DNA from: an uncultured beta proteobacterium | GTDB lineage: Bacteria; Pseudomonadota; Gammaproteobacteria; Burkholderiales; Rhodocyclaceae | DNA: 41,699 nt | Assembly: GCA_903848955.1 (NCBI GenBank) | Contig: CAINHS010000020.1 | Coordinates: forward strand, 1 to 41,699 | Direction of reading: 5' to 3' | Shown: positions 4,096-41,699 of the stretch, piece after piece | Numbering within the stretch: position 1 is the stretch's first letter | Layout: each line of letters begins with the position of its first letter | Notes under the pieces: generated by a model | The model's input: the letters and a program-made list of their open reading frames with translations, nothing else | Told to the model about the DNA's origin: nothing | Databases searched by the model: none | Made by a program: the position numbers and the translations under genes

Positions 4096-4527
4096 ATGCC
4101 AAAGCCAGCCATCCAAACCCGCGCCAAGGCGCTGGAAACCTTCCCCAACCCCGCGCCGCACCGGGATTACCAGATCCACATGGAAATCCCGGAATTCAGC
4201 TGCCTTTGTCCCAAGACCGGGCAGCCGGATTTTGCCGTGCTGACGCTGGACTACATCGCCGACAAGGTCTGCGTCGAGTTGAAGAGCCTCAAGCTCTACA
4301 TCTGGAGCTTTCGCGACGAGGGCCATTTCCACGAAGATGTCGCCAATCGCATCCTCGATGATCTGGCCCGCGCCACGAAGCCGCGCTTCATGCGCCTCAC
4401 CGCGCGCTTCTACGTGCGCGGCGGCATTTTCACCAACGTGGTGGCGGAACACCGCAAGAAGGGCTGGCAGCCGGCGCCGAAGATCGATCTGGCGGAGTTT
4501 CCGGCGCAGTCCAACACGCGCGGCTGA
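4096..4527 (+). CDS. queF: NADPH-dependent 7-cyano-7-deazaguanine (preQ0) reductase QueF, short type
   Basis: QueF reduces the nitrile of preQ0 to the amine preQ1 in the queuosine tRNA-modification pathway. The 143-residue protein has the T-fold signature of the family: [13 protein letters not shown] with the nucleophile Cys38 and acid Asp45, then [21 protein letters not shown] at residues 64-84, which forms the substrate-binding and NADPH region. The length matches the single-domain Bacillus-like QueF rather than the double-domain E. coli form of about 280 residues. The start MPKPAIQ is the first ATG in frame that fits family length. I see no preQ1 riboswitch-like structure in the short upstream region. 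It stands alone, divergent from smc. Confidence 0.95.
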
Positions 4528-4602
4528 AAGCAGCGGCCGGCAGCCGCAACGCGGCGCAATGCGGCAAAATCAGGGTCTGCCAACCGATATCGAAAGCACT
4601 CC

Positions 4603-6045
4603 ATGAAGAACCCTGAACTCCTGCGCAATGCGTGCCTGATCAATGGCGAATGGCTGACGGCGAGCGGTGCCTGCATCGATGTGCGCAATCCGGCGACGGG
4701 TGAGCTGGTCGGCTCGGTGCCGGACTTCGGCGCCGCCGAAACCCGCCGCGCCATCGATGCCGCGGAAGCGGCCTTTCATCCCTGGCGGGCGAAAACGGCC
4801 GGCGAGCGGGCGAAGATACTGCGCCGCTGGTTCGAACTGATGATGGCGAACCAGGAGGACCTGGCACGGCTGATGACCCTGGAACAGGGCAAGCCGCTGG
4901 CCGAGGCGCGCGGCGAGATCGCCTACGCCGCCTCCTTCATCGAGTGGTTCGCCGAGGAAGCGCGGCGCGTGTATGGTGAAGTGATTCCCTCGCCGCTGGC
5001 GGACCGCCGCCTCATCGTGCTGAAACAGCCGGTCGGCGTCTGCGCCGCCATTACGCCGTGGAATTTCCCGGCGGCGATGATCACGCGCAAGGCCGCGCCG
5101 GCGCTGGCCGCCGGCTGCACCATGGTGGTCAAGCCGGCCGAGCAGACCCCGCTCTCCGCCCTGGCGCTGGCCTGGCTGGGCCAGCAGGCCGGCATTCCGC
5201 CCGGCGTGCTCAACGTCGTTACCGGCGACCCGGTTGCCGTCGGCGCCGAACTGACGTCGAATCCGAAAGTGCTGAAGCTGTCCTTCACCGGTTCGACCGA
5301 GGTCGGCCGGCTGCTGATGGCCCAGTGCGCGCCGACCATCAAGAAGATGTCGCTGGAACTCGGCGGCAATGCACCCTTCATAGTCTTCGACGATGCCGAC
5401 CTCGACGCCGCGGTGGCCGGCGCGATGCTCTCCAAGTACCGCAACACGGGGCAGACCTGCGTCTGCACCAACCGTTTCCTGGTGCAGGAGGGGGTGCATG
5501 ATGCCTTCGCGCAGAAGCTGGCGGCGGCGGTGGCCGGACTCAAGGTCGGCAACGGCCTCGAGGACGGCGTGACACAGGGTCCGCTGATCGATGGCGCGGG
5601 CTTGGCCAAGGTCGAGGAACTGCTCGCCGATGCTGTGGCGCAGGGCGCCCGGATCTTGTGCGGCGGCAAGCGCCACGCGCGCGGCGGCACCTTTTTCGAA
5701 CCGACCGTGGTTGCCGGTGCGACGCCGGCCATGCGCCTGGCACGGGAGGAAATCTTCGGACCGGTGGCACCGATTTATCGCTTCAAGGATGAGGCCGAGG
5801 CCATCCGCATGGCCAACGATACCGAGTTCGGTCTGGCGGCCTATTTCTTCAGCCGCGACATTGCCCGCGCCTGGCGCGTCGGCGAGGCGCTCGACTACGG
5901 CATGGTCGGCATCAACTCGGGCCTGATCTCCAACGAGGTTGCACCCTTCGGCGGCGTCAAGCAATCGGGGCTGGGGCGCGAAGGCTCGAAGTACGGCATC
6001 GAGGAATACCTGGAGATCAAATACCTGGCCATGGCCGGCCTGTGA
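4603..6045 (+). CDS. gabD: NAD(P)-dependent succinate-semialdehyde dehydrogenase (GabD type)
   Basis: Aldehyde dehydrogenase superfamily protein of 480 residues. It shows the cofactor-binding TPWNFP at 151-156, the FTGSTEVG glycine motif at 228-235, the general base Glu252 in LELGG, and the catalytic Cys286 in NTGQTCVCTNR. The C-terminal GGVKQSGLGREGSKYGIEEYLEIKY is typical of GabD enzymes, which oxidise succinate semialdehyde to succinate (GABA and related degradation). A second cysteine (Cys288) lies two residues after the nucleophile, as in many GabD proteins. No GABA transaminase is adjacent, so the aldehyde used in vivo is uncertain. It begins a run of plus-strand genes that continues into two exporters. 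Confidence 0.9.
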   Translation: MKNPELLRNACLINGEWLTASGACIDVRNPATGELVGSVPDFGAAETRRAIDAAEAAFHPWRAKTAGERAKILRRWFELMMANQEDLARLMTLEQGKPLAEARGEIAYAASFIEWFAEEARRVYGEVIPSPLADRRLIVLKQPVGVCAAITPWNFPAAMITRKAAPALAAGCTMVVKPAEQTPLSALALAWLGQQAGIPPGVLNVVTGDPVAVGAELTSNPKVLKLSFTGSTEVGRLLMAQCAPTIKKMSLELGGNAPFIVFDDADLDAAVAGAMLSKYRNTGQTCVCTNRFLVQEGVHDAFAQKLAAAVAGLKVGNGLEDGVTQGPLIDGAGLAKVEELLADAVAQGARILCGGKRHARGGTFFEPTVVAGATPAMRLAREEIFGPVAPIYRFKDEAEAIRMANDTEFGLAAYFFSRDIARAWRVGEALDYGMVGINSGLISNEVAPFGGVKQSGLGREGSKYGIEEYLEIKYLAMAGL

Positions 6046-6070
6046 CCGCGCCTTGAAATTTCCCGCCCCG

Positions 6071-7270
6071 ATGCGGGCGCTGGAACATCGCCCGTTCCGG
6101 CTGTATTTCTGCGGTCAGGCGGTTTCCATCCTCGGTTCCTGGATACAGCAGGTCGCGCTGGCCTGGCTGGTCTATCGTCTGACCGGGTCGGCGGCGCTGC
6201 TGGGTCTTGCCGCCTTTGCTACGCTGGCGCCGATGCTGCTGGTGGGTCCCGTGGCCGGGGCCTGGATAGACCGGCATGACCGGCGCCGGCTGCTGATGCT
6301 GCTGCAACTCCTGCTCTTCGTCCAGGCCACGCTGCTGGCCGCGCTGACCTGGTTCGATCTGATCGGGCCGACGCTGATCATCCTGATGGCGCTCTGCCTC
6401 GGCGTGCTCAATGCCGTCGACACGCCGCTGCGCCAATCCCTGATCCCGGCCATGGTCGGCGGACGCAGCGATCTGCCGAATGCCCTGGCGCTGAATGCCA
6501 TGGTATTCAACCTCGGTCGCTTCGTCGGTCCGCCGCTCGCCGGGCTGATGCTGAGCTTCATGACGGAGGCGGCCTGCTTCCTGGTCAATGCCTTTTCCTA
6601 TCTGGCGCTGCTGTGGGCCGTCGCCGCGATGCGCCTGGCACCCGTCGCCAGGGCCGGCGGCAGCGTCGGCCAGGTGTTCAGGGAGGGCGTCCGTTATGCC
6701 ATCGACACCTGGCCGATACGCACGCTGCTGATCGTGCTGGCGGTGCTCAACATCACCGCATCGGCGTATGCCGTGCTGCTGCCGGTATTCGCCCGCGAAA
6801 TATTCCATGGCGATGCCCGCACCCTCGGCCTGCTGTGGGGTGCCGCCGGCTGCGGCGCCTTTGCCGCAACCCTGATGCTGGCGACGCGCAGTTCGGTGCG
6901 CGGCAGTCTGAATCTGGCGATTTTCTGCGTCGTGCTGGCGGCGCTGGCGCTGCTGGCGTTTCCGCTCACGACCCGTCTCGCGCTCGCCCTGCCGGTACTG
7001 GCGGCACTGGGCTTCGGCATTTCCGGCGCCAACGTCGGCATCAGTACCGCGCTGCAGACTGTGGCGCCGGATCACATGCGGGGTCGGGTGGTTTCCTTCT
7101 TTTCCGCCATCCGTTTCGGTCTCGATGCGGTCGGCGGGCTGATCGCCGGCAGCATCGCCGCGCTGAGCAGCGCGCCCGCCACCTTGCTCGGCGAATCTGC
7201 GATACTGCTCGCCCTTGGCCTCTGGCTGCTGCTGCGGGCCGGACGTTTGCGTCAATCGGTGACCCACTGA
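6071..7270 (+). CDS. MFS exporter of the EntS-like (MFS_3) family
   Basis: A 399-residue integral membrane protein. It starts MRALEHRPFRLYFCGQAVSILGSWIQQVALAW, the characteristic beginning of EntS/YbdA-type major facilitator transporters, and has about 12 hydrophobic segments. The MFS loop 2-3 signature is present as GPVAGAWIDRHDRRRLL at about residues 60-76. Members export siderophores or other small molecules, or are of unknown substrate; nothing here fixes the substrate. The open frame extends upstream into gabD, but the ATG at 6071 gives the family-typical N terminus. It is separated from the next gene by only 2 bases, so the two are probably co-translated. Confidence 0.85.
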   Translation: MRALEHRPFRLYFCGQAVSILGSWIQQVALAWLVYRLTGSAALLGLAAFATLAPMLLVGPVAGAWIDRHDRRRLLMLLQLLLFVQATLLAALTWFDLIGPTLIILMALCLGVLNAVDTPLRQSLIPAMVGGRSDLPNALALNAMVFNLGRFVGPPLAGLMLSFMTEAACFLVNAFSYLALLWAVAAMRLAPVARAGGSVGQVFREGVRYAIDTWPIRTLLIVLAVLNITASAYAVLLPVFAREIFHGDARTLGLLWGAAGCGAFAATLMLATRSSVRGSLNLAIFCVVLAALALLAFPLTTRLALALPVLAALGFGISGANVGISTALQTVAPDHMRGRVVSFFSAIRFGLDAVGGLIAGSIAALSSAPATLLGESAILLALGLWLLLRAGRLRQSVTH

Positions 7271-8880: not shown

Positions 8881-9285
8881 CTAGGAGATCTGCCCGACGC
8901 GCGCCGCGACTTCGGGCGGAAAGGCTCGCGACTTGCGGGTCTGCGGATCGAGGCAGACGACGGTGAAGTCGCAGACGGAGCAGACCGCGCCGGTTTCGGT
9001 ATTGATCAGTTCGTGGCGGAAGCGCAGCACCTTTTCGCGCAGTTCCAGCACTGCGGTGCGCACTGCCACCGTGTCACCGGGATAGAGTTCCTTTTGGTAA
9101 CTGATGTTCTGCTGCACCGCCGCCAGGTGCAGCGCTCCGCTGCGCAACAGCGAAGGCGTCATGCCCAGCATGGCATAAAACTGCCAGCAGGCTTCCTCGA
9201 AAAATTCCATGTAGGCGCGCACGTTGATGTGCCCCATATGGTCGCGCTGCCACTCATGCACTGTGCCGCGTGCGGTTTCCATCAT
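8881..9285 (-). CDS. YbgC/FadM-like acyl-CoA thioesterase (hotdog fold)
   Basis: A 134-residue protein with the 4-hydroxybenzoyl-CoA thioesterase pattern: RDHMGHINVRAYMEFFEEA at about residues 14-32, where the first Asp is the usual catalytic position, then YQKELYPGDTVAVRTAVLEL. Substrate is not deducible. Start: two ATGs in a row at 9285; an AGGAA lies about 11 bases before. The gene probably forms a small operon with the YigI-like gene downstream. Confidence 0.85.
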   Translation of the reverse strand: MMETARGTVHEWQRDHMGHINVRAYMEFFEEACWQFYAMLGMTPSLLRSGALHLAAVQQNISYQKELYPGDTVAVRTAVLELREKVLRFRHELINTETGAVCSVCDFTVVCLDPQTRKSRAFPPEVAARVGQIS

Positions 9286-9425
9286 CGCCGGGATTCTTCC
9301 TGTAGCGCCGGGGGCGGCGGATTCTGGTTTTTGCGGGCCATGCCTGCCTCCATTCCTTGAGGATGCGCAGAAGGCTCCATGCTAACCCGATACCGGCCGG
9401 CATGGCATGGCGCCATCGCAAAGCC

Positions 9426-9441
9426 TGGCATTGCTCTTGCT
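9426..9441 (+). promoter_or_regulatory. Sigma54-type -24/-12 promoter
   Basis: TGGCAT, five bases, TTGCT: this matches the RpoN consensus TGGCAC-N5-TTGCW with one mismatch and exact spacing. It ends 36 bases before a small gene with a strong Shine-Dalgarno. A 10-base palindrome ATGGCGCCAT lies just upstream at 9407-9416. The basis is motif match; a typical activator site was not recognised. Confidence 0.5.
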
Positions 9442-9477
9442 AATGCATGCTTGTGAGTGTTGACAACGGAGGCAATC

Positions 9478-9603
9478 ATGGACCTGAACGAACTTCTTGC
9501 ATTGATGACGCTGGGCGCCGTAGCGCCTTATGTCACGGCTGCCGCCGCGTGCTGGATCAAGCGCTCCGGCGAGCCCCCGACTGGTGCAGACGCACCAACT
9601 TGA
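9478..9603 (+). CDS. Small hypothetical protein, 41 residues, behind a sigma54-type promoter
   Basis: The reading frame runs from ATG 9478 to TGA 9601-9603 and encodes MDLNELLALMTLGAVAPYV followed by TAAAACWIKRSGEPPTGADAPT. GGAGG at 9468-9472 is 5 bases before the ATG. Residues 5-27 are hydrophobic enough to be one membrane segment, followed by a short polar tail. I do not recognise a family. Support comes from the whole cassette: a sigma54-like promoter, an excellent ribosome-binding site, the micro-ORF and a 13-base-pair hairpin directly after it. The alternative is a regulatory RNA with a fortuitous ORF. Confidence 0.5.
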   Translation: MDLNELLALMTLGAVAPYVTAAAACWIKRSGEPPTGADAPT

Positions 9604-9615
9604 TGCCATTTCCGT

Positions 9616-9650
9616 AAGCGCCGGCAGCATCCGGCAGGCTGCCGGCGCTT
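9616..9650. terminator. Strong hairpin, probable bidirectional terminator
   Basis: Perfect 13-base stem AAGCGCCGGCAGC (9616-9628) with GCTGCCGGCGCTT (9638-9650) and a 9-base loop. It begins 12 bases after the 41-residue gene and ends 25 bases before the stop of the convergent TlpA-like gene. No T-run follows on the plus strand; on the minus strand the stem is followed by ACGGAAATGG, so any termination may not be classic intrinsic. Confidence 0.55.
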
Positions 9651-9675
9651 GCGGGATGCCGTCCGGTTAAGGCAT

Positions 9676-10188
9676 TTACATCGGGATACGGAAGGTTTTC
9701 CCGATCAATTCAAGGGCTTCAGGGCTGTCCCATTCCTTGCCGCCGTAGACTTTGGCGAGGACACGACCCTGCGCATCGACCAGCAGAGTCAAGGGAATCC
9801 GGTCGGCGCCCAGCATGTTTTCCAGTTGCAGCCGGCTGTCTATGAAGTGACTGAAGGGGGTCCCGGATTTTTTCAGGAATTCCCTGGCGGCATCGGCATA
9901 GTCATCGGTGGAAATTCCGATCACCGCAAACTTCGCCCCCCCGTAGCGGCGCGACAGCCGCCCCAGCGAACCCATTTCCTGACGGCACGGACCACACCAG
10001 CTGGCCCATACATTTATGACAAGCGGCTTGCCGCGGAATTCCGAGAGCAGCCGCGAGGGGCCGGACAGTCCCTGCATCGGGGCATCGCGCAGGAGCCCGC
10101 CGACATCCACTTCACCGGGAGTCTTTGCCGCCGCATCGCCGCCGATGCAGGCCAGCGCAAACAGCATCAGGGAGAGAATCGCTTTCAT
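9676..10188 (-). CDS. TlpA/ResA-like periplasmic thioredoxin
   Basis: A 170-residue protein with an N-terminal signal sequence (MKAILSLMLFALACIGG, residues 1-17, then DAAAK) and a thioredoxin domain. The redox-active WCGPC has Cys65 and Cys68, preceded by KPLVINVWAS, and a conserved cis-Pro region RIPLTLLVDAQG follows at about 130-141. Proteins of this family reduce disulfides outside the cytoplasm, for example in cytochrome c maturation. The open frame extends 47 codons upstream, but ATG 10188 gives a clean signal peptide. It is unclear whether Cys14 makes it a lipoprotein; the residues before it do not fit the usual lipobox well. It sits 49 bases downstream of the LysR gene. Confidence 0.88.
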   Translation of the reverse strand: MKAILSLMLFALACIGGDAAAKTPGEVDVGGLLRDAPMQGLSGPSRLLSEFRGKPLVINVWASWCGPCRQEMGSLGRLSRRYGGAKFAVIGISTDDYADAAREFLKKSGTPFSHFIDSRLQLENMLGADRIPLTLLVDAQGRVLAKVYGGKEWDSPEALELIGKTFRIPM

Positions 10189-33099: not shown

Positions 33100-33175
33100 T
33101 CCTCGATAGCTCAGTTGGTAGAGCGCCGGACTGTTAATCCGTAGGTCCCTGGTTCGAGCCCAGGTCGAGGAGCCA
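33100..33175 (+). tRNA. tRNA-Asn (anticodon GTT), CCA encoded
   Basis: A 76-base cloverleaf. Acceptor arm TCCTCGA pairs with TCGAGGA, discriminator G then encoded CCA at 33173-33175. The D-arm contains AGCTCAGTTGGTAGAGC, the anticodon loop CTGTTAA carries GTT at 33133-33135, and the T-arm CCTGG-TTCGAGC-CCAGG is perfect. It is the boundary between the core chromosome and the island-like region to the right. Confidence 0.98.
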
Positions 33176-33190
33176 AAGAATCAATGACTT

Positions 33191-33217
33191 AGGCCACTTT
33201 AACCGGTGGCCTTTTTC
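33191..33217 (+). terminator. Intrinsic terminator after tRNA-Asn
   Basis: Stem AGGCCAC/GTGGCCT (33191-33197 with 33206-33212), an 8-base loop and a run of five T (33212-33216). A textbook rho-independent terminator 15 bases after the tRNA 3' end. Confidence 0.9.
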
Positions 33218-33233
33218 ATTTCTGGGCCATTTT

Positions 33234-33253
33234 GTACACGTTGCATACACGTT
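33234..33253 (+). repeat. Double-repeat element, copy 1
   Basis: GTACACGTTGCATACACGTT: two ACACGTT units 11 bases apart. It matches 18 of 20 bases of the element at 37755-37774 read on the minus strand. It lies 17 bases after the tRNA terminator and 112 bases before the small plus-strand gene at 33365. It could be a protein-binding site (operator or recombinase arm site). Confidence 0.6.
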
Positions 33254-33364
33254 AGACGGTGGTTACAGGCGCACATTAGTGGATAAGGTGATTGCTATCA
33301 CTTGGTCACGGCAACCCCTGTGCTGCACAATACCTTCACCTGTTGATAGCACTGTAGCCACACC

Positions 33365-33589
33365 ATGAATCCACCAGACAAAATCGTTGATTGCGAATGC
33401 CCGTGCTGCAAGCGTGAGAAATTGATTAGTGTGCGCCTCAGTGACGGTTCTCATACTGCCGGCAGTGCCACCATGATTGAGGACGAGGATGGGAGGTATG
33501 TCATATGCCCTGGTTGCCAGAAACACATATATCTGGAACAAGATGTTCGGGATGTGTGGATTCTTGCTCGACAACAAGACTGCAAATAA
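33365..33589 (+). CDS. Small zinc-ribbon-like hypothetical protein
   Basis: A 74-residue frame with two cysteine pairs: CPCC at about 12-15 (in DCECPCCKREKL) and CPGC at about 48-51 (YVICPGCQKHIY). This spacing fits a small zinc ribbon. No family is recognised. The ribosome-binding site is poor (CCACACC before the ATG), which lowers confidence. It points away from the tRNA, unlike most genes of the region. The 183 bases after it (33590-33772) contain nothing I can support. Confidence 0.5.
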   Translation: MNPPDKIVDCECPCCKREKLISVRLSDGSHTAGSATMIEDEDGRYVICPGCQKHIYLEQDVRDVWILARQQDCK

Positions 33590-33772
33590 TTTCCTGCATT
33601 GTCAGAATTTGATTCAATGGCATCTGCACACTGAGATTGTGCCAAGTAAATCTGATTGACTCCCACAGCAGAAGGCGTAGTCTTCCGATTGTGCCTACCG
33701 GCATCGTCGTATTTAGTCCTACTTGCGCGACGATAAACAAAAGCTAAACGGGACTCCTCACGGGAGAGCATC

Positions 33773-34183
33773 ATGGCTTACTTAGGCAAGGTAAAAGTCG
33801 GAGACTTTTCACCGAATCATCCCTGGTCACATCAACCCGCACGGCACACCTGTATCGTTTATAGAGGCCAGCCGGCCGCAGACTTGCCACCTGACTCAAG
33901 GCGCAAGGTCACCGGCACTTCCTGCCCACTGTGCTATGGGTCTATCGTGGAACTTGTCGGGCATCTGGATGAGTACCAGGGTCGCAAAGACCTTGCCATC
34001 ATTCAGCACATTGCCGGTAATCAGTGCCTCTTACCCTCGAACGATATTGGGCCGGTGGAAGACCCCAAGGCAGCAGAGCAACGCGCCAAATACGCGAACT
34101 TCGACATGAGCCAGGGAGTCGAGGATGCATTAGCCAAGATGACCCCAGAAGAGCAGGAAATAGCGAGGCAACTGGGGTTCTGA
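33773..34183 (+). CDS. Hypothetical protein, 136 residues
   Basis: The frame has a good ribosome-binding site (GGGAGAG, 4 bases before ATG). The sequence contains one cysteine pair in TGTSCPLCYGSIVEL (Cys at about residues 51 and 54) and a hydrophilic C terminus with DMSQGVEDALAKMTPEEQEIARQLGF, a likely helix. I do not recognise it. It converges on the minus-strand operon, with a hairpin between. Confidence 0.65.
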   Translation: MAYLGKVKVGDFSPNHPWSHQPARHTCIVYRGQPAADLPPDSRRKVTGTSCPLCYGSIVELVGHLDEYQGRKDLAIIQHIAGNQCLLPSNDIGPVEDPKAAEQRAKYANFDMSQGVEDALAKMTPEEQEIARQLGF

Positions 34184-34196
34184 CTACGCTTCCCGC

Positions 34197-34227
34197 GCCC
34201 TGATGGACGCATTCGCGGCATCAGGGC
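34197..34227. terminator. Hairpin between convergent genes
   Basis: Perfect 9-base stem GCCCTGATG/CATCAGGGC (34197-34205 with 34219-34227) and a 13-base loop, placed between the plus-strand gene ending 34183 and the minus-strand gene ending 34282. No T-run. Probably a bidirectional terminator for the island operon. Confidence 0.5.
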
Positions 34228-34281
34228 CGCGCACCACATCAAACCGCAAGACGGTGGCAGGAACTTGGCTGAAGTCGATCT

Positions 34282-34629
34282 TCACTCTTCCCGCATCGCC
34301 AAAGATTTGATTCGTCCCGCACCATCGCGGATGACATCGAACACCAAACCTTTGCCGTGTATCTGCGACATGTTGCCAGCACCATCGTAGACGGCATTGA
34401 CGAGATCACCGGAGTGCTGCGGTTGCTTGGGCATGCCTTCGAAATGTGAATCCTCTGTGTCGCGATTCATCGCCCTCTGATAAGCCTGGGTTGCATCCTC
34501 GCTACCGCCCATCACACCGTCTATCGCGAACTGCCTGATCATTGCGGCAAGCGAGGGAGGGACATCTCCCATGTCGGAGACCAGATCGTCTGCAAATGCC
34601 TCTGCCAGTTGCCGTTGGGTAGCAGTCAT
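34282..34629 (-). CDS. Hypothetical protein, 115 residues
   Basis: Good ribosome-binding site (GAGAGGTGA, about 4 bases before ATG). The N-terminal half is helical (RQLAEAFADDLVSDMGD, SLAAMIRQFAIDG); the C-terminal half looks like two short beta-hairpins with similar turns (VYDGAGNMSQIHGKG and VIRDGAGRIKSLAM). No family recognised. It is the last gene of the minus-strand island operon. Confidence 0.6.
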   Translation of the reverse strand: MTATQRQLAEAFADDLVSDMGDVPPSLAAMIRQFAIDGVMGGSEDATQAYQRAMNRDTEDSHFEGMPKQPQHSGDLVNAVYDGAGNMSQIHGKGLVFDVIRDGAGRIKSLAMREE

Positions 34630-34639
34630 AGATCACCTC

Positions 34640-34903
34640 TCATTGAAGGTTGCCTTCCCTGTGCCAACCCAACGTCGCAAGCAATCCGCGCACCTTGGGA
34701 ATGGCAGCTTCGATCTTCGTCATGCTTCGATGCTCAAGAGTTTCCAACATGTACTCCAGCAGAGTGATCCTGGAGGTTTTATCCTCTGCCATGATGTCCA
34801 ATGTCCGTTGCTGTTCTGCCACAAGCTTGTTCGTCGTTTCCAGCAATGCTTGCAGCAACGCGACTTCGCGTTTCGCCGCAGCTACCGGATCGAACTCGGT
34901 CAT
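34640..34903 (-). CDS. Small coiled-coil hypothetical protein, 87 residues
   Basis: MTEFDPVAAAKREVALLQAL followed by a long leucine-rich helix (residues 9-60) and a second helix; probably an oligomer. Its ATG shares one base with the stop of the upstream gene (TGATG), so translation is coupled. Function unknown. A longer in-frame start exists, but it would overlap the neighbour by 100 bases. Confidence 0.6.
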   Translation of the reverse strand: MTEFDPVAAAKREVALLQALLETTNKLVAEQQRTLDIMAEDKTSRITLLEYMLETLEHRSMTKIEAAIPKVRGLLATLGWHREGNLQ

Positions 34904-35295
34904 CAGACAACCGTGATATCGAATCCAGCAGTCAGAGACGAGTGTCCACTGGATGCCGCAGAACTTGCTTGGTTGTAAGTCGAGCCGGTCACCGAATGCC
35001 ATGAAACCGTTCCAGGTGCGGCCCCAGCACTGCTTTGGATGTTCACGACCAAATCGCCAAACCGCATACCGCGATTATCGGCAGACTTGACCAACGGCAT
35101 AGCTGCGTTTCCGCTTGTTGGTTGTGCGCCGCACTGCGCGAAGAATCCTGCTGCGACAATGGTTGCTGCCGCATGACTGGAGCAGTACGCGAAGATTGAT
35201 CCGCCACCACCCAGCACTGCACCTTCACTTTGCACTGCGTAGAGTCCTTGATCAACGATTTGACGAACTGATGCCACGGTTGATGCATATGCCAT
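34903..35295 (-). CDS. Hypothetical phage-like protein, 130 residues
   Basis: A Gly/Ala/Ser/Thr-rich protein (SEGAVLGGGGSIFAYCSSHAAATIVAAGFF, in two blocks) predicted to be mostly beta strand, with MRFGDLVVNIQSSAGAAPGTVSWHSVTG near residues 78-105. The composition is like small phage virion or decoration proteins, but I cannot assign a family. Excellent ribosome-binding site (AAGGAGA). It follows the scaffold-like gene by 14 bases. Confidence 0.65.
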   Translation of the reverse strand: MAYASTVASVRQIVDQGLYAVQSEGAVLGGGGSIFAYCSSHAAATIVAAGFFAQCGAQPTSGNAAMPLVKSADNRGMRFGDLVVNIQSSAGAAPGTVSWHSVTGSTYNQASSAASSGHSSLTAGFDITVV

Positions 35296-35309
35296 GTGAT
35301 TCTCCTTCG

Positions 35310-36290
35310 TTAGTTTGTTTGCAAAAGTTGCCTGTACCGCGACTGCATAGCGGGGTCTCTGTCGTACCTGGATCGATTGGTACGCAGAATCTTCTCGATC
35401 TCCTGGCGCGACAGACCTTCGTCTTTTTGACTGGTCTTTGCCTCTGCCAGGAATTCCTTCAACCTCTCAGGATCGTTGCCGAATGCGCGTCCATCGATTC
35501 GTGACCGCACTAGGTATTCGCGTTCGTCCTTGGGCAAGGTCTCCAGGTAACGGTTGATCGTCGCGATATTGGTGTCGTAGTCGGTCTGCCACTCGGCGCG
35601 GAGTCTCATGCCGGCAGTGTCTCGATGCTCGACATCGACTGCTTCGATCTGCCGCATTGCAGTGACCTGTTGGCTTGATTGCGTCTGCTCATACTTCGCG
35701 ACATTGCGTGTCAGGGTCTGCGCCCACTCGATGCTCTTGCTGAATTCGGATTGGCTTGCGCCGGCCCGCGCCATGTGGTTCGCGAAAGCTTGCAGATACG
35801 GCAGATTCTCAGGTGACACTTCCAGGCCACGAAGATCGTAAGCGTGACGCGCCGGCTCACTCTTCGTCAGTTCCTTGCCCTCCACCGACTTCAGCCAGTC
35901 CATCGCAGCATGTGCCGGTTCTGCCCGTCCCACGAAACCTACAAGGTGATCGACCACCACCGGATCGATGTCTCCCTGGCTGGACTCCTGACCGGACTCC
36001 TGGTCATGCTCGACAGGCTCTTTATTAGCCTCCTGGTCAAGCGGATGAACAGTGTTCGATGTCCTGACCTCATCCATGTTCCGGTAGTCACCGTCACCCC
36101 AATTGCCGCGCTCCACCGGCTTAGTGCCTGGAGGGACGATGTGCAAGCCAACGACATGCTCCGTGGGTGCGGCGTTTCCCCAGTCACCCCTTTGTACTGG
36201 TTTCGCATTTCCGGCGAAGCGCAGGGTCTCAACGTGTTCGCCACCACCGGAACCTCCACTCCAATCTGGACGATCTATGCCATCACCCAT
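35310..36290 (-). CDS. Scaffold-like or virion-associated hypothetical protein, 326 residues
   Basis: The N-terminal 70 residues are Gly/Trp-rich and hold two near-identical peptides, KPVQRGDWGN (30-39) and KPVERGNWGD (57-66). An acidic Glu/Gln-rich linker follows. The rest is highly helical: MRLRAEWQTDYDTNIATINRYL, SRIDGRAFGNDPERLKEFLAEA, and C-terminal RYDRDPAMQSRYRQLL. The LRAEW..DY pattern plus a Lys/Arg C-terminal helix is reminiscent of phage capsid scaffolding proteins; I am not certain. GAGGTGA precedes ATG 36290. No capsid gene follows. Confidence 0.65.
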   Translation of the reverse strand: MGDGIDRPDWSGGSGGGEHVETLRFAGNAKPVQRGDWGNAAPTEHVVGLHIVPPGTKPVERGNWGDGDYRNMDEVRTSNTVHPLDQEANKEPVEHDQESGQESSQGDIDPVVVDHLVGFVGRAEPAHAAMDWLKSVEGKELTKSEPARHAYDLRGLEVSPENLPYLQAFANHMARAGASQSEFSKSIEWAQTLTRNVAKYEQTQSSQQVTAMRQIEAVDVEHRDTAGMRLRAEWQTDYDTNIATINRYLETLPKDEREYLVRSRIDGRAFGNDPERLKEFLAEAKTSQKDEGLSRQEIEKILRTNRSRYDRDPAMQSRYRQLLQTN

Positions 36291-36392
36291 CACATCACCT
36301 CATCGTGGCGGGACACCTGACAAACCGGAGGAACGGAGATCGTATTCGGTGGCCGACTTATCAGGTGGTTGTCCCATGTTCTTCATCGCAAT

Positions 36393-36417
36393 TGTTGAGT
36401 TGGTTTGAGACTCAACA
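36393..36417. terminator. Hairpin between island genes
   Basis: Perfect 8-base stem TGTTGAGT/ACTCAACA (36393-36400 with 36410-36417), 9-base loop, starting 3 bases after the stop of the 254-residue gene (read on the minus strand). No clear T-run. The remaining bases to 36294 hold no supported gene. Confidence 0.4.
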
Positions 36418-36420
36418 GGC

Positions 36421-37185
36421 TCAAGGCAAATACTTCGTAATTTCGTCTTTCTTGAAAACGGCATGATCCTTGAGATGACGGCGAGCAGATTCGACATCAG
36501 GGAACGGCATGCCAGAACTCAGCATCAGATGCCCATCGCGCAGTCTCTTGATGGCGAATCCAGGAACCGGATGCTCCGGCCCCAGTGCGATCAACTCAAA
36601 ACCGTCCGGCAGCCATTCATGCTGGCTCGATTTCTGCGCCGGCTCGATATCGATGTAGCGCAGCAGTCGTGCAGACGCAGTGTTCTCACCGCATTCAGTC
36701 ACCACATACTCGGCATACCAGGAACGATCTGGTGCGATCACCCTGATCAGATCAAAGGCGGAAAGCTGATCACTGAGGATTGACCAGAACCTCCGGTTGT
36801 CATCGAGCAAGCGTGGATCGACATCCGCCGGCGCAACCAGTCTCCTGTCGCAATTGGTGAACTCAGCCAGTTGAAGTTGATCACGCGCCGGTTGCGGGAT
36901 GACGGACATTGCTTCTTTCGCCGCATCAGGCAGCTTCCCCTCACGCCGCAACTTGCTGAACTCCTCGATGCTCACGCCGGCAAGCTCCGCAGCAACCAGT
37001 GCCGCGAGTTCGATGTGACGAGGGGTTTTCGGTATCGGCTTTGCGTCCTTGCCCAAGTTGGCAAGATGCGCCATGTGTTTCGCCTCGCCCTCTGCAATCA
37101 GTTTGTCCTGTGCTGCCAGGATTGCTTTGCGCCTCTCAATCTCTGCACCCAGATTCTTTTGTTCTGCTGCTGTAGCTTCAGCCAT
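36421..37185 (-). CDS. Hypothetical protein, 254 residues, phage-associated type
   Basis: N-terminal coiled coil (residues 1-45: EQKNLGAEIERRKAILAAQDKLI), a short helical segment with ELAALVAAELAGVSIEEFSKLRREGKL that looks like a small helix-turn-helix-like domain, then a mixed domain (SWYAEYVVTECGENTASARLLRYIDIEPAQ, GFELIALGPEHPVPGFAIKRLRDG in blocks). I do not recognise a named family. Strong ribosome-binding site GAGGAGTGAATC before the ATG. Confidence 0.7.
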   Translation of the reverse strand: MAEATAAEQKNLGAEIERRKAILAAQDKLIAEGEAKHMAHLANLGKDAKPIPKTPRHIELAALVAAELAGVSIEEFSKLRREGKLPDAAKEAMSVIPQPARDQLQLAEFTNCDRRLVAPADVDPRLLDDNRRFWSILSDQLSAFDLIRVIAPDRSWYAEYVVTECGENTASARLLRYIDIEPAQKSSQHEWLPDGFELIALGPEHPVPGFAIKRLRDGHLMLSSGMPFPDVESARRHLKDHAVFKKDEITKYLP

Positions 37186-37244
37186 GATTCACTCCTCAGT
37201 TGATTGCATAATTCCAGCATAGCCCTGGACACGTACCTGAGAAG

Positions 37245-37610
37245 TCAGGAGTGATCTGTTTCGGTACTGAAACGGTGAAGATCGATCAGGATACGGAGTT
37301 CATCGCGAAGCACCTCCAGACTTGGTGATTGTGCAAGCCCGTATTCACCAGGATGGGCGCGAAGACGTCGACCAACGACAACCTCCAACTCCTTGTCAGG
37401 CGCGTCCAGCGGAAGTGCCTCTGCTGCCTTCCTGATAGCACCACGCAACAGTTCAGACCTGTCCCTGGAACGATCACCGGCAGCTTTCGCTCGACCAGCA
37501 GATGCGGTGAGGAGTTTGGCAAGGACAGACGGCAAGTCAGGAAAGTCCTGCGCCGCAGTACTTCCTGCCACGCTGGCAACCACCCTGGCGCGATGATCGA
37601 GGATGCCCAT
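37245..37610 (-). CDS. Hypothetical protein, 121 residues
   Basis: A helical, charged protein (MGILDHRARVVASVAGSTAAQ, AKAAGDRSRDRSELLRGAIRKAAEALPLD, then VVGRRLRAHPGEYG). No family recognised. The ATG at 37610 is 2 bases after the stop of the upstream 45-residue gene, so coupling is likely; an ATG at 37631 would overlap it. Confidence 0.55.
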   Translation of the reverse strand: MGILDHRARVVASVAGSTAAQDFPDLPSVLAKLLTASAGRAKAAGDRSRDRSELLRGAIRKAAEALPLDAPDKELEVVVGRRLRAHPGEYGLAQSPSLEVLRDELRILIDLHRFSTETDHS

Positions 37611-37612
37611 GA

Positions 37613-37750
37613 TCAAGCCACGATGATCCACGCAGATGCCCAGAATAGGGCCGCGCCAAGGGCCGCAACGCAGTAACTGGCATACACGCTTGCCTCAAGC
37701 GCGAAGTCCTCAGGAAGGGCCGATTTGATGCCTTGCAGATAGGTCTTCAT
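37613..37750 (-). CDS. Small membrane peptide, 45 residues
   Basis: MKTYLQGIKSALPEDFALEA followed by SVYASYCVAALGAALFWASAWIIVA: one C-terminal membrane helix (about 24-44). Its length and place are like phage holin-type or unknown small membrane proteins; no function can be named. The double-repeat element 37755-37774 ends 4 bases before this ATG and covers its ribosome-binding region (GGAG, read on the minus strand). Confidence 0.5.
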   Translation of the reverse strand: MKTYLQGIKSALPEDFALEASVYASYCVAALGAALFWASAWIIVA

Positions 37751-37754
37751 GCTT

Positions 37755-37774
37755 AACGTGTCTCCAACGTGTAC
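37755..37774 (-). repeat. Double-repeat element, copy 2
   Basis: Plus strand AACGTGTCTCCAACGTGTAC, i.e. GTACACGTTGGAGACACGTT on the minus strand, two ACACGTT units 11 bases apart. Same orientation relative to the downstream gene as the copy at 33234-33253. The remaining intergenic sequence to 37884 (110 bases) shows nothing else. Confidence 0.6.
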
Positions 37775-37884
37775 AGAATCTGAATTGCCGGAACCCATGT
37801 GGCAATCACCTGATACAACTGTATGTTTCCATGTGTGTTCATATTTGCTTTTCTCTGTTCGCCTACGGATTGATAATCCTTGTA

Positions 37885-38433
37885 TCACCGTCTCCAGGGG
37901 CCGGCATTGCCCATGAACGTCGATACTGTTTGCTTGGCTGCACGTTCAATTTTTTTCTGCTCTGCCAAGTCTTCTGCCTCTTCTGCACTCATGGGCTTAT
38001 GCCTGTATCCAGGCTCAGAGTCCTTTGCTGGCAGGACTTCGCCGGCAACCTCCTCCGGTTCCGAAACCTCCCTGGTCAGCATCTTTATGGGTGATGGCGT
38101 TTCGTCTACCAGCCTTGCAGCTTTCGCCAGGACGAACGCAATGCGCCTCGCGCCTTCCAGCAGTCCTTCCGGTGTGCTGGCATCAATGTGCGGTCTCGTC
38201 TGCTCGACATTCAGTTCGATCAACGGCATCAGCTTCGTACTCAGCCCATAAAACACCTTCAAGTTTTCCGGCGAATCCTTGGCCCAGGCCAGCAGGTTTC
38301 TCTCCTTGTCCTTCTGTAGCTTGCCGAATGCTGCCTCCCATGCATTCCTCACCGTGACCGTAACCTTGTTCGCCGCGCCTTTCCGTCTTCCTGCTCCTGC
38401 TGGCCTTGGCTGACCTTTCTGAAATTTGCCCAT
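37885..38433 (-). CDS. Terminase small-subunit-like phage protein
   Basis: A 182-residue protein beginning MGKFQKGQPRPAGAGRRKGAANK, a basic N terminus typical of phage small-terminase-like or DUF5681-type proteins, followed by VRNAWEAAFGKLQKDKERNLLAWAKDSPENLKVFYGLSTKLMPL in blocks, a pattern often seen in this group. The C-terminal half is charged and helical, including ALVEAE-like EEAEDLAEQKKIE. It would bind packaging sites and recruit a large terminase, but no large terminase gene is in the window. The ribosome-binding site is GAGGA, 7 bases before the ATG. The assignment is by pattern memory, not by a search. Confidence 0.65.
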   Translation of the reverse strand: MGKFQKGQPRPAGAGRRKGAANKVTVTVRNAWEAAFGKLQKDKERNLLAWAKDSPENLKVFYGLSTKLMPLIELNVEQTRPHIDASTPEGLLEGARRIAFVLAKAARLVDETPSPIKMLTREVSEPEEVAGEVLPAKDSEPGYRHKPMSAEEAEDLAEQKKIERAAKQTVSTFMGNAGPWRR

Positions 38434-38460
38434 CGTTATTCCTCGTTGAAGTAATGCCTG

Positions 38461-38610
38461 GGCAGTGGTGGCAGTGGTGGCAGTGATTTTCTATCCCTAT
38501 AGCTATTCGATTTACTCTGGAGATGGAATATCACTGCTATCACTGTCTATCACTGCCGTAAATTGACCCTGGAACACAGGGTGCTGGTTTATAAACACTG
38601 CTTTCACTGC
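38461..38610. repeat. Iteron-like repeat cluster downstream of the primase-helicase
   Basis: Three tandem 9-mers GGCAGTGGT, GGCAGTGGT, GGCAGTGAT (38461-38487); then TATCACTG at 38529-38536, 38538-38545 and 38548-38555; then CACTG at 38596-38600 and 38605-38609. That is eight CACTG cores (three inverted relative to the other five) in 150 bases, with periods of 9-10. The 41 bases between the groups are AT-rich (TTTTCTATCCCTATAGCTA). A small hairpin ACCCTG/CAGGGT lies at 38566-38582. No gene can be supported in 38434-38609. The layout resembles iterons of a replication origin or operators. Confidence 0.65.
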
Positions 38611-39962
38611 TAACGGTCTCCGTTCTTGGTTCTGATTAACTCGACCTGCTCCCGATAACTCAACTTCCGTTGCCCATAGACTGCTTGCCGTCTGCCGTCG
38701 ACACTCCAGAGACCGTCCTTCCGATCCTGGTTGCGAACTGGGATGTATCCCTGCTGGTGTAGTCGGTGCTGGACGTTGCGTCTGGTCTTGAGTCCGGTCA
38801 GGAAGTCAGCCAGAGAGAATGCTTGTCTGCGCCGCGCACAATCAGCCAGTTGTCCCAGTTGCAGGATAGGAGGATTGCCCAGGTCATCGATCAGGCTGGC
38901 AAGTTCGGCATCCTCAGGTGCGGCATTGGCATGGACGATGCGCCAGAATGCTTCAGTCTTGGGTGGCGATGCTTTCGCGTTCCAGCCGGATATATCCAGA
39001 GTTCTCAGATAGGCAACAACGTGTCCGATCCCGCCATTGGCATACCAATCCCAGAGTTGTGTCCAGTATTTCTCGGTGAAGGCATCCTTCTCGATCTCAC
39101 TGCTGGCAACAAAATGACGACGGTCATCGGCATCGAGGAAAATGCCATCAGCCTCATGGTTGGTGGTGATGATGATGCCAACCACATTGGGAACGGCATA
39201 TTCGCGAATGTTCTTGGAATCCACCCTGAGTACGTCCGGTGGTGCTGCCATGAAGACTTTGCTGTGGTCATAGAAGGCGTATCGGTCATAGTCACCCAGG
39301 TCTCGGGCTTCATTGACTCTGACGATAACTGCCTTGCACCACTCGTTGAACCGTCCTTGCATCTGGGCAGGGTTGATGTCTTGCCAGTTCCACGGTCCGA
39401 CTCCCTGCTTCACTGGCTCAAGGATTGTGTCCTTCCCGATCCCTGGTGCGCCCTGTAGCACGATGCAGTGATTTATCTTTTCGCCAGGGTGCTGGATGCG
39501 GTGTGCAAGCCAGCATTCGATGTGCCGTGCTTCACCAGGATAGATGAGATTGAGATGCTCCAGCCAAACCCCTGCCTGGGCAGGGTCACCAAGAAGGACT
39601 GGTGCTGGACGGTACAGGTTGAATACGTTGCACCCATGGTGATCAATCCAGCCACCGGAGTCGATCAACTTGTCCTTGATCAGTGCCGGCTCATTAGGTG
39701 ACCAAGTCATCTGTTCCACCGGCGCATTCCTATCGAGCCACGCGGATGGACGCACGATTTGTCCATTGACAATTTTTGGTGGCAGTCTGGTATTGATGCT
39801 TTCAGCCGGCCACAGTTCTCCGGTGGGCTTGAATATGTACTTGTGCATCGGCATCAATGCGTAGAAGTCGTTGATGGTGATTGCCGCGTCAACTTCATAC
39901 CCACTGAACAATTTCGCGAGGTTGTCGAGGTCGCGGATCCCTGCTTCTGCGGATGCTGTCAT
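38610..39962 (-). CDS. DUF5906-like primase-helicase / replication NTPase
   Basis: A 450-residue protein. The central ATPase has a Walker A LQGAPGIGKDT at about 170-180, a Walker B/sensor region in AVIVRVNEARDLG near 213-225, and the sensor-like VVGIIITTNHEADGIFL (about 255-271) with DADDRRHFV, a pattern of superfamily-3 type phage and plasmid primase-helicases (virulence-associated E/DUF5906 group). The C terminus is a winged-helix-like region. It likely opens or unwinds the origin of the element. Good ribosome-binding site AAGGAG 10 bases before ATG. The cluster of repeats lies just downstream of its stop. Confidence 0.85.
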   Translation of the reverse strand: MTASAEAGIRDLDNLAKLFSGYEVDAAITINDFYALMPMHKYIFKPTGELWPAESINTRLPPKIVNGQIVRPSAWLDRNAPVEQMTWSPNEPALIKDKLIDSGGWIDHHGCNVFNLYRPAPVLLGDPAQAGVWLEHLNLIYPGEARHIECWLAHRIQHPGEKINHCIVLQGAPGIGKDTILEPVKQGVGPWNWQDINPAQMQGRFNEWCKAVIVRVNEARDLGDYDRYAFYDHSKVFMAAPPDVLRVDSKNIREYAVPNVVGIIITTNHEADGIFLDADDRRHFVASSEIEKDAFTEKYWTQLWDWYANGGIGHVVAYLRTLDISGWNAKASPPKTEAFWRIVHANAAPEDAELASLIDDLGNPPILQLGQLADCARRRQAFSLADFLTGLKTRRNVQHRLHQQGYIPVRNQDRKDGLWSVDGRRQAVYGQRKLSYREQVELIRTKNGDR

Positions 39963-39990
39963 AGCCGCGCTCCTTGCCTACGATCATTTG

Positions 39991-40254
39991 TCATATCCGC
40001 AAGTCCTGTCGTATCCGCAACAACCACTGGGTCGTATTGCTTGCGAGTTCGGAACCGGAGTGACGGTCTGGATGGCAAAGCTGGATCAATCCGCGCAGTC
40101 GACTGGGCAGTTCATCAACTATTCGTGCAGGAAGATTCGCTGGTGCTGTGGTGGCATTGCGCTTCGTCGACCAGCAGGCGCGACAACGAATCTTCCAGTT
40201 TTCACTGGGGCCGCGAAGGAATGTGGTGCGGCAGTCGATGCATACGCCAATCAT
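39991..40254 (-). CDS. Zinc-ribbon mini-protein with HPD motif, 87 residues
   Basis: Residues 1-30 carry Cys-x2-Cys twice (VCIDCRT at about 4-7 and CRACW at about 26-29), so a zinc ribbon is likely. The C-terminal half is helix-HPD-helix: LIQLCHPDRH (about 59-68) followed by ASNTTQWLLRIRQDL. The HPD and helices recall the core of a DnaJ domain, though shorter than a full J-domain. It is directly upstream of the primase-helicase in the same operon, 28 bases apart. Proteins of this kind occur beside phage replication genes; function is unknown. Confidence 0.6.
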   Translation of the reverse strand: MIGVCIDCRTTFLRGPSENWKIRCRACWSTKRNATTAPANLPARIVDELPSRLRGLIQLCHPDRHSGSELASNTTQWLLRIRQDLRI

Positions 40255-40322
40255 GATTGCACCCGTTGCATACTGAGGCAGGGAGGCGTAGAGTGCTGGT
40301 GTCTGCTTTGATTTGTCTCCTC

Positions 40323-40355
40323 GATGATGGCTGCCCCCCACAGGCAGCCATTATC
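40323..40355. other. Hairpin between island genes
   Basis: GATGATGGCTGCC (40323-40335) with GGCAGCCATTATC (40343-40355), 13 pairs including one G-T, and a 7-base loop. It lies between the 81-residue gene and the zinc-ribbon gene, both on the minus strand. No T-run follows on the minus strand (GAGGAGACAAAT). It could attenuate or stabilise the operon mRNA. The rest of the 121-base gap shows nothing. Confidence 0.45.
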
Positions 40356-40375
40356 ATTTCCAGGGTCTGGTGGCC

Positions 40376-40621
40376 TCACAGCAACTCCCTGGCACGACGC
40401 GCCGCGGATTGGACGGGGCAGTAGCACCCACCACGCTGGAGATGATCAAGTGCTTTCAAAAGCTTTGAGAGCAACGGCTTCTCCGACATACGCAAGCGCG
40501 GGTCTACCTGGAAGTGACGCAGCACCTTGAGCAAGTGACTAAACGATTGATCGTAGTCACCGCGACTGCTGCAGAGATCTGCGTCCCGCAGCAATTCCTT
40601 GAGTTGATCGCCGGTAGCCAT
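40376..40621 (-). CDS. Hypothetical protein, 81 residues
   Basis: A helical protein (MATGDQLKELLRDADLCSSRG, SHLLKVLRHFQVD, LLSKLLKALDHLQ) with cysteines in GGCYCPVQ near the C terminus. No family recognised. Its ATG is 2 bases after the stop of the HTH gene, so it is translated together with it. Confidence 0.55.
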   Translation of the reverse strand: MATGDQLKELLRDADLCSSRGDYDQSFSHLLKVLRHFQVDPRLRMSEKPLLSKLLKALDHLQRGGCYCPVQSAARRARELL

Positions 40622-40623
40622 GA

Positions 40624-40827
40624 TTAGGCTGCCTTGCAGTTAGTGCCGGATTTTGCGATGCGTTCAATCTCTTCCGCTGGGATGCGACGGTCACTACCAA
40701 CCTGGATGTATCCAAGTGCGCCAGCCTTCATCAGACCGTAAATGAAGGAACGGCTTACATCGAGCAATTGTGCTGCTGAATTCGGGGAATAGAGAAGCTT
40801 CTGATGGGTGGTATGAGTGGTGGACAT
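40624..40827 (-). CDS. Excisionase/AlpA-like helix-turn-helix protein
   Basis: A 67-residue winged HTH of the MerR/excisionase (DUF1 binding domain helix) type: LLYSPNSAAQLLDVSRSFIYGLMKAGALGYIQVGSDRRIPAEEIERI in blocks (residues 11-57). Such small proteins act as excisionases or as AlpA-type activators in prophages and P4-like satellites. An AGGAG is about 8 bases before the ATG. It is upstream of the replication genes, as would suit a master regulator. Confidence 0.8.
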   Translation of the reverse strand: MSTTHTTHQKLLYSPNSAAQLLDVSRSFIYGLMKAGALGYIQVGSDRRIPAEEIERIAKSGTNCKAA

Positions 40828-40898
40828 CGGTGTCTCCTGTGATGAACTAACGCACAGGTACGATGCCAGAGGTCACACGCGATGAAAATGCCGTGTGT

Positions 40899-40922
40899 AT
40901 TGCTAAGTCGCGCTATAGCAAT
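40899..40922. other. Hairpin overlapping the end of the 143-residue gene
   Basis: ATTGCTA (40899-40905) with TAGCAAT (40916-40922), 10-base loop, overlapping the stop codon of the minus-strand gene at 40913. A weak candidate terminator. The 71 further bases to 40827 show no recognised signal. Confidence 0.3.
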
Positions 40923-41344
40923 AATTTCTTTCGGGCGCGAGAAAATGTTTCCCTGATGGTTGTATCGGTAGATCGTGCGGCAAGTCGTGGTTCAGTTTCT
41001 CGAAAGCCACTCTCATCATGGAATCGACCAGAACTAAGTCCGTCGAGAATTATTTTGCTCAGTTGAGGTCGTACCTTATCCCATTCGCGCAATCTGAATG
41101 GCAGGCATGCAATTAAAGAAGCCAGCCTTTCTCGTTCCATTTTGAGTTCTGTACTCGAATTGTCTTTCGCGAATTTAATCAGGTCATCGAACAGATGCCA
41201 TGTATGAGTATCCGCATCGGTGCGATTGTAGTTGTAGATAACGTCTATCAAATTATCAGCATCATCATTTGCCTTGATGGCTTGTGCCTTGGCAATTTCC
41301 TCTTCCTTCGTGCTTCGCTTCGGAGGTTGCTTTTCCTTACTCAT
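40913..41344 (-). CDS. Hypothetical partner protein, 143 residues
   Basis: Charged helical N terminus (SKEKQPPKRSTKEEEIAKAQAIKA) followed by a helical domain (NLIDVIYNYNRTDADTHTWHLFDDLIKFAKD, LASLIACLPFRLREWDKVRPQLSK in blocks). No family recognised. Its ATG overlaps the stop of the ADP-ribosyltransferase-like gene by 4 bases (ATGA), so the two are translated as a pair. A toxin-antitoxin or defence pair is one idea, unproven. Visible codon use is less GC-rich than the core genes. Confidence 0.65.
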   Translation of the reverse strand: MSKEKQPPKRSTKEEEIAKAQAIKANDDADNLIDVIYNYNRTDADTHTWHLFDDLIKFAKDNSSTELKMERERLASLIACLPFRLREWDKVRPQLSKIILDGLSSGRFHDESGFRETEPRLAARSTDTTIRETFSRARKKLLL

Positions 41345-41699
41345 TTCGCCTCCCGCCTCAACTGCATGTCATTCACATGCATTTCTGAGAACCGTTCGGT
41401 AACCTTAACGGCCATCAAGTACCGTCGATCCACGATATATTCTTCTTCGTGGTAGCGGTCTTGGGTACGCGGAACCTTGCATATGATTGCCTCTTTGGGT
41501 GCAAGCGTCTCAAGAACGACACTTCCACCTTTTGCCGTTCTGGCTATTCCCTTCATGGCATGATTACGAGCAACTTCGATGGATGCAGTCCATGACAAAC
41601 CGTATGTGCGCCGAGAACGATTATGGAGACTTTCTCCACGGTAGAGATGCTTCGCACTGCCTCTATACATTGGCAACAGCACTCGTAGCGCATCAGCAA
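41341..41699 (-). CDS. ADP-ribosyltransferase-like protein (start outside window or uncertain)
   Basis: At least 113 residues; the frame stays open to the window edge, so the 5' end may be missing. Three motifs appear in the R-S-E order of ADP-ribosyltransferases: HLYRGES (Arg), TYGLSWT (Ser) and HEEEYIVDRR (Glu-x-Glu), with the strand GGSVVLETLAPKEAIICKVP between. The spacing of about 15 residues from R to S and 50-60 from S to E is plausible for the fold. Catalytic activity is inference. Possible in-window starts are GTG 41682 or ATG 41670, but upstream codons (ALRVLLPMYRG) also read as protein. Target and role unknown. Confidence 0.55.
   Translation of the reverse strand, partial: ADALRVLLPMYRGSAKHLYRGESLHNRSRRTYGLSWTASIEVARNHAMKGIARTAKGGSVVLETLAPKEAIICKVPRTQDRYHEEEYIVDRRYLMAVKVTERFSEMHVNDMQLRREAK

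Follow-up and report, generated by a model that had tools for sequence, protein, structure and literature searches.

What is a compact array of short repeats doing beside a helicase gene near the end of contig CAINHS010000020.1, a stretch of 41,699 nucleotides (nt) from an uncultured beta proteobacterium (the whole stretch is called the window below)? The repeats, eight copies of CACTG, lie directly 3′ of a gene for a DUF5906/D5-like helicase, in what appears to be a phage-like integrated element. We predict that the array is the replication origin of this element and that it is read by the C-terminal domain of the helicase, with a probability of roughly 85%. The features involved are as follows.

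38463..38485, minus strand: iteron group of three inverted copies (facing arm), exact CACTG sites at 38463, 38472 and 38481
38486..38531, no strand: AT-rich core between the facing arms, candidate melting site, 46 bp at 67% AT
38532..38555, plus strand: iteron group of three copies beside the AT-rich core, CACTG at 38532, 38541 and 38551
38566..38582, no strand: small stem-loop of 6 pairs between the groups of three and two
38596..38609, plus strand: iteron group of two copies abutting the helicase stop codon, CACTG at 38596 and 38605
38610..39962, minus strand: DUF5906/D5-like helicase gene, 450 amino acids, putative origin-binding initiator
38613..38945, minus strand: C-terminal domain of the helicase (residues 340-450), winged-helix-like model, putative iteron reader

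The array and the adjoining helicase gene

The exact sites span 38463-38609, with start-to-start periods of 9 and 9, 9 and 10, and 9 bases in the three groups; one arm has five copies and the other three, and the bases that flank CACTG vary among copies. This agrees with a preliminary description of the DNA, which had reported eight copies in groups of 3 + 3 + 2, the first group inverted, periods of 9-10 bases, an AT-rich stretch between groups and no coding sequence. The AT-rich stretch is the core listed above, and the open reading frame (ORF) list has no ORF of at least 80 amino acids across 38434-38609. It was left unsaid that the array, which ends at 38609 against the stop codon at 38610-38612, is 3′ of the helicase gene.

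There are eight CACTG copies in the 251 nt around the array, a count reached by none of 3000 dinucleotide shuffles (mean 0.63, largest 5). Six copies of the longer form CACTGC follow the helicase stop codon within 350 nt (0/200 and 0/300 shuffles), and both occurrences of the pattern CACTGNNNTCACTG in the whole assembly are at the array. The density of a 5-mer is in itself unremarkable: CACTG is not enriched contig-wide (74 found, 83.6 expected), GCCGA also reaches eight copies in 150 nt elsewhere on the contig, and some 5-mer reaches eight in 1 of 60 whole-contig shuffles. What speaks for the array is instead its period, its facing arms, its position and its conservation. Elsewhere on the contig CACTGC forms five further pairs within 60 bases, and the element contains two of these (35215/35233 and 35614/35659); among the CACTGC sites of the contig, where the element is incomplete, there is no second array with at least three copies or with facing arms.

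The helicase matches DUF5906 (PF19263) at 37.8 bits, above the curated Pfam cut-off of 27.6, and Pfam identifies no primase domain in its 450 amino acids. Its predicted structure matches those of the NrS-1 and SaPI5 helicases, suggesting the same ATPase fold. In alignments, the window subfamily has N-E or S-E at about residues 212-222 (VNEARD, VSEARD) and retains the glutamate; the corresponding pair in most distant relatives is D-E, of the Walker B type.

The facing-arm design in related elements

At 51 loci we searched the roughly 330 nt that follow the helicase stop codon for the same design. A strict 2+2 test asked for at least two copies of a 6-mer with a period of 8-12 bases and, 30-220 bases further on, at least two reverse-complement copies. 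It was passed by 23 of the 51 loci, compared with 0/5100 shuffles and 2/1242 control windows of the same loci. The passing loci include 9/16 of the close subfamily to which the window belongs and 14/35 of the others. In 19 of the 23, the inner gap is AT-rich for its locus (fewer than 5% of 40-nt windows equal its best 40 nt); the exceptions are L018, L035, L038 and L176. When the arms were split at the gap, both arms of one element matched each other and arms from different elements matched in 15 of 506 pairings. The arms of one element therefore tend to change together, as is expected for sites of one protein. For five relatives, 39 kb around each was searched, and the repeat forms a single site apart from one stray pair.

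Part of this evidence comes from a broad set of 36 loci, window included. The 61 genomes near the window's own gave six with a match (own genome included), and 200 genomes of the order gave 39 with DUF5906, for which 30 loci were listed and 29 used. In the 350 nt that follow the stop codon, 15 of the 36 loci have a 6-mer whose count is reached by at most 1/200 shuffles, and 18 have one reached by at most 4/200. Control counts were 2 to 4 copies inside the gene and 2 to 5 in the next 350 nt (7 for L026; L007 has no value). Many of these loci have copies in one direction before the inner gap and in the opposite direction after it. The repeat itself is mostly element-specific, for example CGCACG, TGCACA, GTAACA, GGAACA or AATGTA.

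The preliminary description had suggested looking for these repeats beside related primase-helicases and would have counted a lack of conservation against the origin. Viral contigs were scanned for CACTG triples without the use of protein information, which gave at least 120 loci; among the 120 listed, a hidden Markov model search found one with such a helicase, L086. Its helicase is 53% identical to that of the window, a CACTG triple lies about 95 nt after its stop codon and one CAGTG is on the other arm, so the repeat is not unique to the window. As for conservation, the layout is often kept and the sequence mostly is not.

A close set was found using the window and L086 helicases and comprises nine viral loci (including L086) and seven genome loci with 45-57% identity. 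The 6-mer count after the stop codon was reached by at most 2/300 shuffles in 6/16 (L171 and L172 are alike) and by at most 28/300 in 12/16. The clear arrays have a period of 9. Repeats are of ACTGAC or CAGTGA types in L167, L168, L176 and L177; others are AGTACC (L169), AAGCCC (L170), ACGACC (L171), CACCGA (L179) and AGCGCG (L180). Weaker cases are L173 and L174, with few copies, and L175, with arms more than 200 nt further on; the L178 array is unclear and the sequence contains N bases. In L181 the last part of the helicase ORF includes the iteron arms (about 3590-3720), and the 9-base period there equals three codons (HDEHDEHDS). The L177 and L180 helicases are identical at 294/440 positions, yet their repeats are GTCAGT and AGCGCG.

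The design also occurs in isolates. The window helicase matched 304 phage records and one plasmid record by tblastn, of which ten phages and the plasmid were examined. Burkholderia phage AH2, Halomonas phage H4907, Stenotrophomonas phage S1 and Rhizobium plasmid pTH2c pass the strict test (4/11, versus 0/1100 shuffles and 1/374 control windows). In phage S1 (L197), a hypothetical protein is annotated right across the iteron arms (2454-2804) and is probably not a gene.

Comparison with known origins

The closest match in design is the origin of phage-inducible chromosomal islands (PICIs) and Staphylococcus aureus pathogenicity islands (SaPIs), a single site directly 3′ of rep with two sets of iterons around an AT-rich core (PMC6092414, PMC7581432). 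PMC6092414 reports an AT-rich region between two iteron sets, directly 3′ of the PICI initiator gene, and describes a test of the maintenance of pri-ori plasmids. The window array has the same place, and its layout is three inverted copies, the AT-rich core, then 3 + 2 copies. As for the PICI gene set (integrase, regulator, pri-rep-ori order, specific attachment site), the window helicase has no primase domain by Pfam, no integrase was recognized in the ten ORFs scanned and the contig ends inside the element, which may or may not be a PICI. The setting of L086, the closest relative among the repeat-scan loci listed, is of phage type, as its next ORFs resemble terminase subunits by eye.

The preliminary description had likened the region to P4-type satellites, and this holds in part. 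In the P4 record, alpha (4636-6969) is on the minus strand, and crr (4291-4590), annotated with short repeats in both orientations, ends 45 nt 3′ of it. However, the record marks a separate origin (9086-9809), a second region about 4.5 kb from crr, and the type 1 repeat of P4, mostly TGTTCACC, differs from CACTG. In the staphylococcal cassette chromosome SCCmec, the cch2 gene is likewise followed by short direct repeats, and the C-terminal domain of Cch2 binds the region; PMC7581432 gives this binding as shown for Cch2 and states it for SaPI Rep. Unlike the window, with eight copies in facing arms, there are only three AAGTG repeats. For plasmid pRN1 and phage BIP-1, the corresponding region is also just 3′ of the primase-helicase gene and is essential in pRN1, but it is described as a stem-loop rather than as iterons (PMC4234260). 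The best reading is that the window has a single-site origin of the PICI kind that is P4-like only in part.

Proposed mechanism and significance

In the mechanism that we propose, the helicase of the element would recognize the repeats through its C-terminal domain and assemble, probably as two rings, on the facing arms. It would then melt the AT-rich core between them and load itself, and replication would start in both directions.

This kind of origin is already known; what is new is the window member, its repeat and the extension of the design beyond PICIs. A 2018 paper states that the PICI-type organization is shared by no other known bacterial replicon, and in the literature searched, which was covered in part, we found no statement that the design extends further. 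Its presence in AH2, H4907, S1, the Rhizobium plasmid and 23/51 loci suggests that it marks the helicase family and not the PICI lifestyle. We give about even odds to a wider view taken as a whole. In this view, the supposedly PICI-exclusive design is a portable module that belongs to DUF5906/D5-like helicases in general and is found in ordinary phages and prophages and in at least one plasmid; each helicase would fit only its own iterons, as a key fits its lock, and the pairing would change quickly; and in the window helicase subfamily the part of the repeat toward the AT-rich core, TGAW, tends to be constant and the outer part to vary. If so, comparison could reveal the recognition code that the C-terminal domain uses, with L177 and L180 as a natural pair for reading it. 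Facing arms would also allow origins to be proposed easily in phages for which none is annotated.

Alternative explanations

Two further features matter for the alternatives.

33100..33175, plus strand: tRNA-Asn(gtt), possible attachment site, at a drop in GC content
37885..38433, minus strand: next gene downstream of the array, 182 amino acids, no Pfam or NCBIfam match, weak PHROG matches, function unknown

Several observations weigh against the predicted origin. More than half of the loci (28/51) fail the strict test, as do 7/11 phage or plasmid records and the crr of P4 itself; either the test misses real cases or many relatives are without the design. Only six of the 16 close relatives, one a duplicate, reach the level of 2/300 shuffles, and L173, L174, L175 and L181 do not beat shuffles. 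For the C-terminal domain, the winged-helix-like model has only weak fold matches. The contig end truncates the element, which may also be decayed; the array would then be a relic, a former origin that no longer works. We consider this doubtful, though it is the most probable of the alternatives. No terminase large subunit, portal or integrase was recognized in the ten window ORFs scanned (the element has more), and the last 25 bases of the tRNA have no second copy in the genome assembly at up to two mismatches. The missing genes, however, may lie on another contig, the arms and their spacing are regular, and the helicase frame is open over 450 amino acids, with its phosphate-binding loop.

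The repeats could also be folded rather than bound, forming a hairpin or cruciform from the facing arms as PMC4234260 proposes for pRN1 and BIP-1, just 3′ of related replication proteins. The array strand does fold better than shuffles (z -4.19, 0/200), but facing repeats fold by construction. Arm copy numbers are often unequal (five and three here, 1 and 3 in L086, 5 and 3 in L171) and periods differ (9 and 10), which argues for protein sites rather than one stem and makes a stem-loop origin unlikely. We conjecture that pRN1-type hairpins may themselves be facing repeats. Less probable still is the operator that the preliminary description offered beside the origin, in which a regulator of the element would bind the repeats and control the operon from 38433; the origin half of that proposal gains from the arrays of the same design at many related helicases (23/51). 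The array is 5′ of the 182-amino acid gene (start at 38433), with 29 bases between, and both flanking genes are on the minus strand. By eye, the first gene after the array starts with a similar Gly/Arg-rich stretch in the window, L086 and L177, so the array in part keeps company with the downstream gene. In other close relatives, however, the ORFs after the array look different (by eye, up to two ORF starts per locus); the helicase is present at every compared locus because the loci were chosen for it. The two arms change their repeat together, and a scan for one promoter type found no sigma-70-like promoter in 37800-39000. A double role as origin and operator is possible. Terminator-like sites in 37800-39000 number two, with 1.5 expected from shuffles.

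Other features of the element

The GC content falls from 0.59-0.65 to 0.46-0.59 at the tRNA-Asn gene (500-base steps), as at an integrated element, which would span 33176-41699 and continue past the contig end at 41699. An ORF of 327 amino acids (35310-36293) resembles by eye a phage scaffold-type protein and has a weak PHROG match of unknown function; tblastn found no relatives of it in 50,697 phage records (E 0.01). A 29-nt inverted repeat, 86% complementary, has its halves in two different genes 2.8 kb apart (35971-35999 and 38790-38818).
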